From an uncultured Erysipelotrichaceae bacterium (GTDB lineage: Bacteria; Bacillota_I; Bacilli_A; RF39; UBA660), in the NCBI GenBank assembly GCA_902775285.1, contig CACYLI010000008.1:1-64000 (forward strand): a stretch of DNA of 64,000 nt, given 5' to 3'. The number at the start of each line of letters is the position of its first letter. Position 1 is the first letter of the stretch. Below, piece by piece: positions 8,757-17,279 of the stretch. The position numbers and the translations under genes are program-made. The notes beneath the pieces are model-generated. The model was given only the letters and a program-made list of their open reading frames with translations, searched no databases and had not been told where the DNA came from.

Positions 8757-10244
8757 ATGAAAACATATATTTGTGAGAAATGCGGAAAAATTATAGAAAG
8801 TATAGATGTTAATGAAAATATAATTTGTCCAAATTGTGGTGCATTAAAAGAAAATATAAAAATATATAATAATGAGATAACTGATAATGAAATAGATGCT
8901 GTAATAAATTCTATAATAGAAGATGCAAATAGTATAAAAGAATCATTAATAGTAAATCGTGACGATAATGAAAAATTTTTGCATATATCAGAAGATAATA
9001 ATTGCTTTATTAGAAATAAAGATAAATGTATAAATTGCGGTCAATGTAAAAAAACATGTGAAGATTTAACAAATATAAAGTATGATTTAAATAAATGCAG
9101 TTATCCAATATGTATTGGTTGCGGTCAATGTGTTATTAATTGTCCTAATGAAGCATTGGAGTTTAAAGAAAATTATAAAGAGGTTAAAAGATTAATAGAT
9201 ACTAATGAAAAAGTAATAATAGCTTTACTTTCACCTGCAGCAAAAGCCTCTATATTGAATTATTATGATTTATCAAATGAAAATTTAATAGAAAATAAAC
9301 TTATTGGTTGTCTTAAAAAGATAGGATTTGATTACGTATTTGATGGTGGATTTGGAAATGATTTGTTTATATTAGAGGAAACTGCCGAATTAATAGATAG
9401 ATTAACATATAAAAAGTCATTGCCTTTATTAACAAGTTTTTGTCCTGCATTTGTTAACTATTTACAAATATATAATAGTGATTTACTTGATAATGTTTCT
9501 AAATGTAAAATTCCATCAGTAATGCATTCAAATATAATAAAAAAATATTTTTGTGATAGAAAAGGATTTGAAATCAACAAAATAGTTATAGTAAATATTA
9601 CAACATGTAAAGCAGAAAAAACATTAAAAAATTGTGATTATGATTATTCTATTAGTGTGAGCGAATTAATTAAGTTGATAGAAGAAGATAATATTAAAAT
9701 AAATTTATGTGAAAATAAAGAATACGATCAGCTAGTAGGGTTATCCAGTTCATCAGGTCAATTAAGTGGAGTATTAGGAGGACTGAGTGAATCAATAGTT
9801 CGAACATTATACAGTGTTTTATTAAATAAAACAATAAAGAATAATGAAATAGTATTTGATGATTTAAGAAATATAAATGGTATAAAAGAAGTTTCAATAA
9901 TTATTAATAAAATCAAAATTAAAATAGCCGTTGTAGAAGGAATGAAAAATTTTGAAAATATAATTAGAAATGATTATTATAAAAATTTTCATTTAATTGA
10001 AGTTATGAATTGTAAAAATGGTTGTATAGGTGGAACTGGACAAGATAAAAAAACAATTATCAATTCTTTAATAAATAAAAGTTTTTTATATACAAATGAT
10101 AAAAAAATTAAAAATAAAAATTCCTCAGATAATAAGGAAATAAAGGATGTCTACAAGAATTTATTAATTAAACCATACAATATAAATAATAGCTTTTTAT
10201 ATAATGAAAATTACGAAAATAAAAATTATTTATTAAAAAAATAA
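8757..10244 (+). CDS. [FeFe]-hydrogenase-like iron-sulfur protein with altered active-site loop
   Basis: A 495-residue protein with a rubredoxin-like CEKCG/CPNCG pair (residues 5-30), two [4Fe-4S] ferredoxin motifs (CINCGQCKKTC and CIGCGQCVINC, about 90-130), then an H-cluster-type domain. The loops are TSFCPAF, TTCKAEK and EVMNCKNGCIGG, so the four cysteines that hold the H-cluster [4Fe-4S] are present. The preceding proton-transfer Cys of the usual TSCCP is Phe, and GGGQP is GTGQD. Known families lacking that Cys are putative sensory (group C/D) enzymes. A role in redox or H2 sensing is inference; loss of hydrogen turnover is also possible. An AGGTG site precedes ATG 8757. The C-terminal 60 residues are low-complexity Asn/Lys. 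Confidence 0.8.
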   Translation: MKTYICEKCGKIIESIDVNENIICPNCGALKENIKIYNNEITDNEIDAVINSIIEDANSIKESLIVNRDDNEKFLHISEDNNCFIRNKDKCINCGQCKKTCEDLTNIKYDLNKCSYPICIGCGQCVINCPNEALEFKENYKEVKRLIDTNEKVIIALLSPAAKASILNYYDLSNENLIENKLIGCLKKIGFDYVFDGGFGNDLFILEETAELIDRLTYKKSLPLLTSFCPAFVNYLQIYNSDLLDNVSKCKIPSVMHSNIIKKYFCDRKGFEINKIVIVNITTCKAEKTLKNCDYDYSISVSELIKLIEEDNIKINLCENKEYDQLVGLSSSSGQLSGVLGGLSESIVRTLYSVLLNKTIKNNEIVFDDLRNINGIKEVSIIINKIKIKIAVVEGMKNFENIIRNDYYKNFHLIEVMNCKNGCIGGTGQDKKTIINSLINKSFLYTNDKKIKNKNSSDNKEIKDVYKNLLIKPYNINNSFLYNENYENKNYLLKK

Positions 10245-10262
10245 TTTTTTTTTTAAAAAGTA

Positions 10263-10291
10263 TTGACAAACAAAATGTGTATTGATAAAAT
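10263..10291 (+). promoter_or_regulatory. Promoter of structured RNA 1
   Basis: TTGACA at 10263-10268 and TAAAAT at 10286-10291, 17-nt spacer. The predicted start site (about 10298) coincides with the 5-prime strand of the closing helix of the RNA. Confidence 0.8.
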
Positions 10292-10483
10292 AAAAATGTA
10301 CATAAGATAGCTAAGCTATTATTTAGTTATAAAACTTAATTGTTTCTATATTCTAAATAGTATTACTTAACTATTGTGGTGAAAAAATCTATGTATATTT
10401 ATTTAATTTAAATATATATTATATTTATATCATTAGATAGTATTAATTTATTATTTATTGAATATATAATATATATCATTAAA

Positions 10484-10735
10484 TAATTCCCTATATTATT
10501 TATGTTTTAATTAATATTAATTTATTAGTTTTTTACATAATAATAAATAATTATTTATTCAGTTAAGTAATTCCCTTTATTATTTATATAACAATTAATA
10601 TTAATTTATTGATTATTATATTAAATAATATATAGTTACTTATATTTTAAATAATTCCCTATAATATTTATATTATAACTAATATTAATTTATTATTATA
10701 TTTATAAGTATTACATAATTATTTATTAATCAAAT
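10484..10735 (+). repeat. Three 84-nt tandem repeats inside RNA 1
   Basis: Units start with TAATTCCCT at 10484, 10568 and 10652, an exact 84-nt period, and each contains TTAATATTAATTTATT-type sequence about 25 nt later, which can form a small hairpin. A diverged fourth unit may precede them (around 10430-10455). RNA 2 has a single counterpart with the related hairpin CTAGC/GTTAG near 11489-11505. Confidence 0.8.
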
Positions 10736-10930
10736 TAAATGAATATTGATCTTATTTGTTTAAGATAATAGATATCTTATCTACCAAGTACAAATGATAT
10801 ATCGTTGAGAAAGTAAACTCAAAATGATAAGGGATTATGCTAAATACTGATAATATTTAGGATGTGTTTATATTAAGGTTATATGTAACTTTAATATAAA
10901 TGATTATAATCTATTTTTCAGAAACTCGAA

Positions 10931-10963
10931 GCAATCAAGCTTTATCAGGGCTGGTTGCTTTTT
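10931..10963 (+). terminator. Terminator of RNA 1 with kissing-loop sequence
   Basis: GCAATCA..GC (10931-10940) pairs with GCTGGTTGC (10950-10958), followed by TTTTTGTTT. The loop contains TTATCAG (10942-10948), complementary to the CTGATAA loop at 10847-10853. Confidence 0.8.
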
Positions 10964-10984
10964 GTTTATTATGAGGAGTTAAAA

Positions 10985-11338
10985 ATGAGATATTTTATTA
11001 TATTTGGTATTACTTTTATATTAGCACTATTTATTATTTTTTATAATCCATATTTAGCTGTTTATAAAGATTCGATTACTATATATTATGATAATTATGA
11101 AGAAGGATATTTATGGAATTATTCTATTAGTAATGATAACTTAAAACTTATTGAATCTAGTAATAATAAATGGGTTTTTAAGCCAAATAAAAACGGAAAG
11201 GTTAAATTAACATATTATTATAAAAGTGATAATGAAAATAAATATACAATTTATTATGAATTTAAAGTAAAAGGAAATAAAATTTTTTGGACTAAAGGAG
11301 AAGCAAAAGGATTGTTAAGTTATCCAAATCCTATTTGA
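10985..11338 (+). CDS. Small exported protein, possibly beta-sandwich (chagasin/Ig-like)
   Basis: A 117-residue protein with an N-terminal membrane anchor or signal (residues 3-21). The body has alternating strand-like segments: EEGYLWNYSISNDNLKL, WVFKPNKNGKVKLTYYY and YTIYYEFKVKGNKIFW. This pattern resembles small immunoglobulin-like or I42 (chagasin-type) protease-inhibitor folds, but the similarity is too weak to assign. A GAGGAG site at about 10972 supports ATG 10985; an upstream ATG at 10955 lies inside the RNA 1 terminator. It sits between the two structured RNAs, so readthrough of the RNA 1 terminator may control it. The UGA stop immediately precedes the RNA 2 promoter. Confidence 0.65.
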   Translation: MRYFIIFGITFILALFIIFYNPYLAVYKDSITIYYDNYEEGYLWNYSISNDNLKLIESSNNKWVFKPNKNGKVKLTYYYKSDNENKYTIYYEFKVKGNKIFWTKGEAKGLLSYPNPI

Positions 11339-11363
11339 CAATTCTCTTTTTTTTTGTTACAAT
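11335..11363 (+). promoter_or_regulatory. Promoter of structured RNA 2
   Basis: TTGACA at 11335-11340 (overlapping the stop codon of the preceding gene) and TACAAT at 11358-11363, 17-nt spacer. The predicted start (about 11370) falls on GTCC, the 5-prime strand of the RNA 2 closing helix. Confidence 0.8.
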
Positions 11364-11369
11364 AATATT

Positions 11370-11727
11370 GTCCTATGATATAAATATATAGAATAATTAT
11401 TTTTATTAATTTAATTATTAGTTTAAATTGATATTTATATATTTATTAAATTGTAAATAATTTTATTTATGTAACACATATTTATTGCTAGCATTAACTT
11501 GTTAGTAGTTTATATATTATTTAAATAGAATTCTTATCTACTATGGACGTATGATATATCACTAGAGAAAGAAAACTCTTAAAAGATGAGAAGATTATGC
11601 TAGATACTGATAATATTTAGAATTTTAAATTAATCAATTTAAAAAGTTTATTAATTTAACGATTATAATCTATTTTTCGAAAAAACTAGAATAAGTAAGT
11701 TTTATCAGAATTTACTTATTTTTTTTA
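11370..11727 (+). ncRNA. Structured RNA 2 (about 360 nt), homologue of RNA 1
   Basis: The RNA has its own promoter, no open frame and a U-tailed hairpin end. The 5-prime GTCC (11370-11373) can pair with GGAC (11545-11548); RNA 1 has GTAC/GTAC at the same two places, a compensatory change. Shared blocks follow: ATGATATATC, GAGAAAG-AAACTC, GATTATGCTA-ATACTGATAATATTTAG (hairpin 11600-11620 with loop CTGATAA), a 10-bp helix of unrelated sequence (11625-11634 with 11650-11659), GATTATAATCTATTTTTC (11661-11678) and a terminator hairpin with loop TTATCAG (11702-11708). It lies upstream of the Fic gene. RNA 1 and RNA 2 differ mainly by the repeat expansion in RNA 1. Confidence 0.8.
11691..11726 (+). 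terminator. Terminator of RNA 2 with kissing-loop sequence
   Basis: ATAAGTAA (11691-11698) pairs with TTACTTAT (11712-11719), followed by a T-run. The loop contains TTATCAG. The stem sequence is entirely different from that of RNA 1 while the loop is conserved. Confidence 0.8.
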
Positions 11728-11737
11728 ATTAAAAAAT

Positions 11738-11776
11738 AAAATATACATATTTTAAAACTCTTATGTATATTTTTTT
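11738..11776 (+). terminator. Second terminator hairpin between RNA 2 and the Fic gene
   Basis: AAAATATACATA (11738-11749) pairs with TATGTATATTTT (11762-11773), ending in a T-run. It separates RNA 2 from the Fic gene by a second barrier. Confidence 0.6.
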
Positions 11777-11816
11777 AGGAAAATATGTTATTATATTATT
11801 ATAATGGAGGCGAAAT

Positions 11817-16232: not shown

Positions 16233-16248
16233 CTTCTAAATCTTTTTA
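16211..16248 (+). terminator. typA terminator, stem within the coding sequence
   Basis: AAGATTTAGAAGT (16211-16223) pairs with ACTTCTAAATCTT (16232-16244), followed by TTTTATTT. The strong 13-bp stem begins inside typA and may also serve the convergent gene. Confidence 0.85.
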
Positions 16249-16764
16249 TTTACTAAACTTATTAATAAGTTTTGCTACTTTAAATATTATTTCATCACTT
16301 TTTTTAATTGCTATTTTCTTTCCAATAGCTTTTCCACCAACTGTTAGTGAAGAAACTATTGAACTAACGATTAAAATAGCAAGTACAGAAGAAATGTTTA
16401 TTTTATTTGATATAATTAATCCTATCATTGCTGAAATAGAACCACTTACTATTCCACAAATATCACCAATTACATCATTACAAATAGAAGCTATTGTACT
16501 ACTATTTCTTATTAAATATACTCCTTCTTTAGCACCTTTAATCTTTTTAGAACTTTTAGCGTGGAAAGTAGATTCTTCGGCAGTTAAAACAGATGTTCCA
16601 ATTATATCAAATATTATACCTAATAAAATAAAGAGCAGTGATAGGAATATCAAGACAATTAGATTATCAAACTTATTAATAATAATATTTGAAAATGTAT
16701 TAAAAATAATAGCAATTATAAATGTTAATAAAAATGCTTTTACTATCCAATTATTGTTTTTCAT
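16246..16764 (-). CDS. CorB/CNNM-like (DUF21-type) membrane protein
   Basis: A 172-residue integral membrane protein with about three hydrophobic segments: two near the N-terminus and one around residues 125-145. The middle segment GTSVLTAEESTFHAKSSKKIKGAK resembles the conserved membrane part of CorB/CNNM divalent-cation transporters. The cytosolic CBS domains of full-length CorB are absent; short standalone versions of this type are common in Clostridia and related groups. The start is ATG 16764, with AGGAGA directly upstream; reading further upstream enters the structured RNA. Its mRNA may carry that RNA as a leader, since no clear terminator separates them. Transport of Mg2+ or Co2+ is inference. 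Confidence 0.65.
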   Translation of the reverse strand: MKNNNWIVKAFLLTFIIAIIFNTFSNIIINKFDNLIVLIFLSLLFILLGIIFDIIGTSVLTAEESTFHAKSSKKIKGAKEGVYLIRNSSTIASICNDVIGDICGIVSGSISAMIGLIISNKINISSVLAILIVSSIVSSLTVGGKAIGKKIAIKKSDEIIFKVAKLINKFSK

Positions 16765-16844
16765 TTTTTCTCCTAAAAAAAAAGAATTGTATGGATTATT
16801 ATAAATTAATTTTACGGCTTTGGTCGAGTTGAGTTTCTCTTGCA

Positions 16845-17245
16845 TTTACCCTTGATTACTCGTAGGCGATTTCTCTTTAAAAACACAAATCATTCGTTAC
16901 CTTAAATGATCACTCGATCACCACTTAGTCCGCACTTCAATCTTTATAATAAAGACACGCTAGAGGTTTTCCCAGACAAACAACAATCACTTTTATTCGC
17001 TTTTGCAACTTATTTTTCAATATTTATCCCAATAAATCACTCACGACATGTACGTTCATAACTAACGATGCGATAAAAGGAATTCTAAATACATGCCATT
17101 GTATTATATCCTTAAACCTAAAATTATATAATCACCCCAGTCTGGGCGAAAGAAGCAAAATATATAAAGTATCTTTTTGTACAATTAATGGATTTTTAGC
17201 CCCATCTTCTAGTGGTGTGTTTGACTAGCATAATGCTCCACACGT
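16845..17245 (-). ncRNA. Long structured RNA of unknown class on the minus strand
   Basis: A 400-nt block without an open frame and with visibly higher G+C than its surroundings. On the minus strand a consensus promoter (17251-17279) precedes it. Pairings that can be seen: GTGTG...CACAC around a GAGCATTATGCT hairpin at the 5-prime end; CCCAGAC with GTCTGGG, 7 bp over about 160 nt; a CATGTA/TACATG helix in the middle; GATC-gagt-GATC; and CGAGT/ACTCG near the 3-prime end. It lacks the GAGGAAAGTCC core of RNase P and the tRNA-like ends and tag frame of tmRNA. It may be a free RNA or a long leader for the CorB-like gene. The 3-prime limit is uncertain. Confidence 0.6.
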
Positions 17246-17250
17246 TAATA

Positions 17251-17279
17251 ATACTATCATAAAATAGAAAAAATGTCAA
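17251..17279 (-). promoter_or_regulatory. Minus-strand promoter of the structured RNA
   Basis: On the minus strand, TTGACA (17279-17274) and TAGTAT (17256-17251) are 17 nt apart. The predicted start at about 17245 is immediately before the GTGTGG helix strand. Confidence 0.75.

Follow-up and report, generated by a model that had tools for sequence, protein, structure and literature searches.

Within the window (i.e. the whole 64,000-nt stretch of DNA that was analysed), the forward strand harbors two stand-alone transcription units, each of which comprises a SigA-type promoter, a helix that ties the 5' end to a structured core, a hairpin with a CUGAUAA loop and a terminator hairpin that carries UUAUCAG in its loop. 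In both units the 5' end of the RNA lies 6-7 nt past a promoter of the TTGACA-17-TAnAAT type, and the 3' end is formed by a hairpin and a U-tract. The first promoter (10263-10291: TTGACA 10263-10268, 17-nt spacer, TAAAAT 10286-10291) is predicted to give rise to a stand-alone transcript of ~667 nt (RNA 1, copy a; 10297-10963), and the second one (11335-11363: TTGACA 11335-11340, 17-nt spacer, TACAAT 11358-11363) to a transcript of ~359 nt (RNA 2, copy b; 11369-11727). An open reading frame search found no frame of at least 50 aa in 10244-10955 and none inside RNA 2; the promoters, the missing coding frame and the U-tailed hairpin ends described for both units in the initial annotation were all confirmed in the sequence. 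RNA 1 begins with a variable, A+T-rich 5' domain (10302-10775), of a kind whose length differs strongly between lineages; it contains three tandem 84-nt units (10479-10738, the first starting at 10479) with the stem-loop-like sequence UAAUAUUAAUUUAUUA in each, and similar repeats occur in the 5' domains of other members of the genus. The core that follows is made up of P1 (CUUAUC 10776-10781 with GAUAAG 10826-10831 in RNA 1, from the Rfam structure line; CUUAUC 11533-11538 with 11585-11590 in RNA 2), the hairpin P2 (UUGAG-AAAGUAAA-CUCAA, 10805-10822 in RNA 1) and the hairpin P3, in which the CUGAUAA loop sits on a CTAAATA/TATTTAG stem (transcribed as CUAAAUA/UAUUUAG) in RNA 1 (10840-10860, loop 10847-10853) and on CTAGATA/TATTTAG in RNA 2 (11600-11620, loop 11607-11613), P3 being delineated by both the Rfam alignment and relatives. 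Just before the terminator of RNA 1 lies a conserved linker (AAACUCGA, 10922-10929), which recurs as AAACTCG or AAACTAG immediately 5' of the terminator in most relatives.

The initial annotation had been unable to match the two RNAs to any class known to it and had named ROOL, GOLLD and raiA-type RNAs as alternatives. Both cores proved to be full-model matches to RF03040 (PGK RNA), detected by cmscan at 10769-10860 (82.4 bits, E 1.8e-9) and 11526-11620 (73.9 bits, E 7.2e-8), i.e. above the gathering cut-off of 50.8 bits, and their alignment to the Rfam consensus recovered the same P1, P2, P3 and CUGAUAA loop in both copies. The class is thus not new here, and an unknown RNA class is ruled out by this match. 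No other Rfam family was found at E<=1 in 10700-11800, the covariance models of OLE, ROOL, GOLLD and raiA (RF03072) being without a match at either RNA; a raiA search of the genome in which the window lies was also negative, in a run that gave no match in any control genome either. The RF03040 model (92 positions, 1-92) covers P1, P2 and P3 only: it starts after the 5' domain and ends at P3, includes neither the terminator with its loop nor the 5' end with the helix formed by it (P0), leaves a self-complementary segment of the core unpaired and carries the type Cis-reg, whereas the RNAs of the window are stand-alone and away from pgk. A literature search found no paper naming the ‘PGK RNA motif’ or RF03040 and no functional study, and the motif is said to have been described in a 2017 paper.

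The genome contains two PGK RNA copies, both in the window. PGK RNAs were present in 18/18 genomes examined of the genus and in 40 of the 291 sampled genomes of the family; order-wide and class-wide samples, which included many genomes of the same family, gave matches in that family only. A scan with a degenerate pattern returned 61 stretches, from metagenome-assembled genomes (MAGs), for most of which the label was Bacilli, Tenericutes, Erysipelotrichaceae or Clostridia. A phage or mobile origin was rejected, as the exact pattern had no match in viral contigs and the genome scan yielded MAGs only. The search of related gut Bacilli that the initial annotation had suggested provided, after removal of duplicates, 111 distinct oriented loci, and these relatives support its proposal of a selected RNA structure with compensating helices. 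The core behaves unexceptionally in single-sequence folding (z -0.35 and -0.67 for the two copies); it is therefore comparison, not energy, that supports the structural claim. Among the relatives we observed a divergent subgroup of ten loci, in which a UGUAA-type segment replaces the self-complementary one and in which, for most members, the hairpin with UUAUCAG lies at a distance of hundreds of nt downstream and not in a terminator just after P3; this subgroup may constitute a larger RNA type.

The genomic neighbours of the RNAs were inspected as well. Within the fetched flanks, pgk was found at six loci only (L004, L005, L006, L085, L090 and L091), which belong to one genus where assigned, and the promoter of pgk itself (TTGACA/TATAAT) lies between the RNA terminator and the start codon in L004, L005, L006 and L091 and is degenerate in L085; in the genome studied here pgk resides on another contig, not next to a PGK RNA. 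Regulation of pgk in cis was accordingly discarded as a general explanation. The genes downstream of the other loci come from families without relation to each other, among them murG, Fic, sigma factor, sulfatase, metG, obg, PFL and U32 peptidase, RNA 2 itself being followed by an unrelated Fic gene, and 14 out of 104 are convergent. The arrangement typical of riboswitches and attenuators (a steady leader position in front of co-regulated genes without a promoter of their own) was not found among these loci, copy a in the genus of the window being a possible exception. There, a gene for a small protein with weak similarity to I42 (chagasin-like) inhibitors (10985-11338, forward strand; E 3.6e-4, below the curated cut-off) starts ~5-25 nt past the U-tract of RNA 1 and shows no visible promoter of its own, so near that read-through seems needed; for this reason a cis role of copy a is possible, and read-through may couple RNA 1 to the I42-like gene. 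The product of this gene is small and membrane-anchored, and the gene lies beside the PGK RNA in the genus and between both copies in two-copy genomes. A reading in which PGK RNAs are cis-regulatory leaders, whose P3 loop would kiss the terminator and control termination before the downstream gene, could draw on this arrangement, on the Cis-reg type, on the one genus with pgk just downstream and on the fact that flanking genes are mostly co-directional. We nonetheless regard it as unlikely, since no common family unites the downstream genes, some of which are convergent, the upstream genes are co-directional just as often (83:15, against 90:14 downstream), and the adjacent pgk mostly has its own TTGACA-17-TATAAT promoter after the RNA terminator. 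Because pgk is rarely adjacent and then mostly has its own promoter, and because the other neighbours are unrelated and in part convergent, PGK RNA is best regarded as an independent RNA, for which the ‘cis-reg’ label fits poorly. Several copies adjoin a spoIVA, sigma factor or CotD-like gene; a link to sporulation was dropped, SpoIVA being uninformative through its presence in 250 of the 291 genomes of the family.

Comparison of the relatives indicated that both ends of the RNA are tied to the core. At the 5' end, UGUAC (10297-10301) pairs with GUACA (10788-10792) in RNA 1, and UGUCC (11369-11373) with GGACG (11545-11549) in RNA 2. The core strand of this helix (P0) lies between P1 and the self-complementary segment, and a SigA promoter directly precedes the 5' strand in most of the 97 core-type RNAs, most relatives with a detectable promoter showing the arrangement of RNA 1 at this place. 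Across relatives the two strands change together (UUGCUUAG/CUAAGCAA, UUGUCC/GGACAA, UGUAC/GUACA, CCUAGAG/CUCUAGG, GUUUAGAG/CUCUAAAC and others), and the helix score is 9.95 for strands of the same RNA versus 6.26 for foreign ones, a difference reached in 0/5000 permutations; the closing helix noticed in the initial annotation (GTAC/GTAC versus GTCC/GGAC) is therefore real and covaries widely. A tree-aware covariation test on 74 RNAs retrieved 12 pairs at E<=0.05, every one of which lay in P0, in P3 or in the stem of the terminator. Six of the seven P0 pairs were significant, with registers picked by best helix, a bias from which the permutation test is free; the genomes are related and hence non-independent, and the tree simulations handle this kinship approximately. 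The near-invariant pairs between the P3 and terminator loops and the single pairs of the self-complementary segment stayed below significance in this all-against-all setting.

At the 3' end, the terminator hairpins of RNA 1 (10930-10963, fold z -3.05, loop UUAUCAG 10942-10948) and RNA 2 (11690-11727, fold z -3.57, loop UUAUCAG 11702-11708), both followed by a U-tract, expose the exact complement of the P3 loop (TTATCAG in the DNA). The heptamer alone proves nothing, because the window contains 23 occurrences of TTATCAG against 15 expected, and the weight lies with the relatives: TT(A/G)TCAG followed by a T-run is found in 96/97 core-type RNAs, and in 96/97 the P3 loop complements the terminator loop over 7 nt. 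Furthermore, compensatory changes of the two loops occur in several genera, i.e. CUGACAA/UUGUCAG (L029), CUGACAU/UUGUCAG (L032, L141 and L142) and CUAGUAA/UUACUAG (L123 and L124), the near invariance of the heptamers meaning that this covariation rests on few lineages. In RNAs with a longer 3' part, the partner heptamer UUAUCAG is in most cases found 175-540 nt farther downstream, again in the loop of a hairpin. The 7-bp kissing or pseudoknot contact between CTGATAA and TTATCAG put forward in the initial annotation is thus supported by its conservation and by the compensatory changes; against it, a smaller loop is preferred when the isolated terminator hairpin is folded. We infer that the two loops meet within one molecule and not between two; a contact between molecules, which would allow rings or higher-order assemblies, may also occur.

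The elements listed in the initial annotation are all present, yet besides the RF03040 match it had overlooked a palindrome at 10793-10806 and 11552-11561, which the Rfam model leaves unpaired. In RNA 1 this segment (AAUGAUAUAUCGUU) is proposed to form a 14-bp homodimer duplex, and in RNA 2 (UGAUAUAUCA) a homodimer of 10 bp is predicted, the two copies having the centre GAUAUAUC in common. The site corresponds to the strand between P0 and P2 (8-16 nt), and nearly all core-type RNAs keep it self-complementary despite drift of its sequence (variants include ACAAUUGU, GAUAUAUC, GUUAUAAC, ACAUAUGU, GCGCGC, UAAUACGUAUUA, AAUACACGUGUAUU, AAUGAAUUCAUU and AUAUGAUCAUAU); the palindrome is absent in the divergent subgroup (about 10 RNAs). 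Over the inner six layers of 57 distinct 14-mers, 325 out of 342 cells were paired, as compared to 223+-8 (maximum 252) after shuffling; on the tree, 422/444 were paired versus a simulated maximum of 385 (0/1000 simulations). The four central bases were self-complementary in 74/74 RNAs (simulated maximum 67; 0/1000), with at least 8 different sequences among them, and as these adjacent bases are unable to pair within one chain, the palindrome points to dimerisation. Pairs of paralogs add to this picture. Both genomes examined of one genus (g35) contain two PGK RNAs, whose segments (UAUAAUUGUA in copy a and UACAAUUAUA in copy b, the latter placed by anchoring on CAATTA) are not perfect palindromes, neither of them, and are exact complements of each other; the predicted duplex energies are -15.2/-16.4 kcal/mol for the heteroduplex versus -6.8 and -2.4 kcal/mol for the homoduplexes. 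When ranked by the gain of hetero- over homoduplex, the two first copies of g35 paired with the shared second-copy sequence come first and second among all 2628 pairs of distinct 18-mers. Intermolecular pairing, as in a homo-oligomer, is thereby supported at the level of sequence by two kinds of evidence, namely the covariation of the central adjacent bases and the hetero-complementarity of paralogs, and the palindrome duplex probably forms between molecules in the cell.

Could the palindrome merely fold back on itself into a small hairpin whose loop has 4 nt? Segments of 12-16 nt can fold in such a way (predicted 0 to -3 kcal/mol), a reading that we consider improbable given that the would-be loop is precisely the central tetranucleotide that stays self-complementary in all 74 RNAs tested, and that copy b of g35 no longer has the hairpin, its complementarity to copy a being perfect. 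The hetero-complementary paralogs of g35, together with the presence of two copies in several genomes, might be read as regulator/target pairs, in which copy b would titrate copy a as a partner of the antisense type; there is about as little to recommend this, since most genomes are single-copy with a perfect self-palindrome, and since both copies self-pair in the other two-copy genomes, with different centres in G234. A DNA-level dyad for a dimeric protein, for which the shortness and conserved position of the segment and the frequency of dyads at DNA-binding sites could be invoked, is very improbable, given that the segment lies inside the transcribed core, that its sequence drifts freely with the symmetry kept, and that the inner five layers contain 250 Watson-Crick, 30 G.U, 2 A.C and 3 other pairs on the RNA strand, this excess of G.U over A.C (30:2) being unexpected under a DNA constraint and placing the constraint at the level of RNA. 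The two PGK RNAs have palindrome centres AAUU versus GCGC in G234 (L013/L118) and AAUU versus GAUC in G294 (L049/L143), and such differing palindromes would keep two homodimers separate.

On the basis of these comparisons we propose, with a probability of roughly three in four, that PGK RNAs are independent non-coding RNAs with both ends tied to the core, which act as homo- or heterodimers. Each RNA would be made from its own promoter and ended by its own intrinsic terminator, and would not be an mRNA leader; its first nucleotides would form P0 together with the core, and all 7 nt of the terminator loop would pair with the P3 loop, pinning the 3' end. The self-complementary strand, left exposed between P0 and P2, would then find its partner in the corresponding strand of another RNA molecule, yielding a homodimer, or in g35 a heterodimer of the two paralogous RNAs. 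The pinned ends would presumably also protect against exonucleases, and the product would be stable and scaffold-like or trans-acting, a scaffold for a protein partner and an action in trans both being candidate roles of the dimer. That PGK RNA constitutes a natural quaternary assembly, usually a homodimer via the joining strand but, for a single genus, an obligate heterodimer built from co-evolved paralogs, we put forward more tentatively, at somewhat less than even odds.

Three features beyond the Rfam model (P0, the complementarity of the P3 and terminator loops, and the palindrome) are now supported by evolutionary comparison, and the whole-molecule fold would be ~three to nine times longer than that model. 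The raiA motif was originally named after a neighbouring gene, and PGK RNA was likewise named for its neighbour; the present evidence recasts the latter as an independent, probably dimeric RNA. Loop-loop kissing complexes of 7 nt are formed by ColE1 RNA I/RNA II, in which two 7-nt loops are likewise complementary over their whole length, whereas in PGK RNA both loops belong to one RNA and one of them is the loop of the terminator. The raiA motif RNA (ModT) is an independent structured non-coding RNA of Bacillota with pseudoknots (PMC11706538), which resembles PGK RNA in this independence and shows no match to it in sequence or structure. OLE, ROOL and GOLLD are ornate bacterial non-coding RNAs that form RNA-only homo-oligomers, those of OLE and GOLLD involving symmetric kissing loops with palindromes that switch between species, GGCC in OLE giving way to GAUC or AGCU (PMC12286853). 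Such palindrome switching is the same kind of evidence as that for the proposed PGK RNA dimer, and the argument from adjacent bases that are unable to pair in a single chain had been applied to those loops as well. PGK RNA differs from these three in that its palindrome is longer (8-16 nt) and located in a joining strand, not a hairpin loop, and in that one genus points to a heterodimer of paralogs. The drift of the palindromes and the hetero-complementarity between paralogs represent direct evolutionary evidence of RNA-RNA assembly, by which PGK RNA would join OLE, ROOL and GOLLD among the few natural RNAs with quaternary structure; a natural RNA heterodimer may be part of it.

The same window also harbors a full-length OLE RNA (16775-17257, reverse strand, 215 bits). 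It is partly overlapped by a 199-aa membrane-protein-like open reading frame (16246-16845, reverse strand), which sits where the OLE partner gene oapA is usually found. By hand count, OLE occurs in ~34/40 PGK-positive and ~152/251 PGK-negative genomes, a link that we set aside as weak and confounded by ancestry. Altogether, OLE was found in 186 of the 291 genomes of this gut family, the class having been described mainly from extremophiles (PMC12286853).
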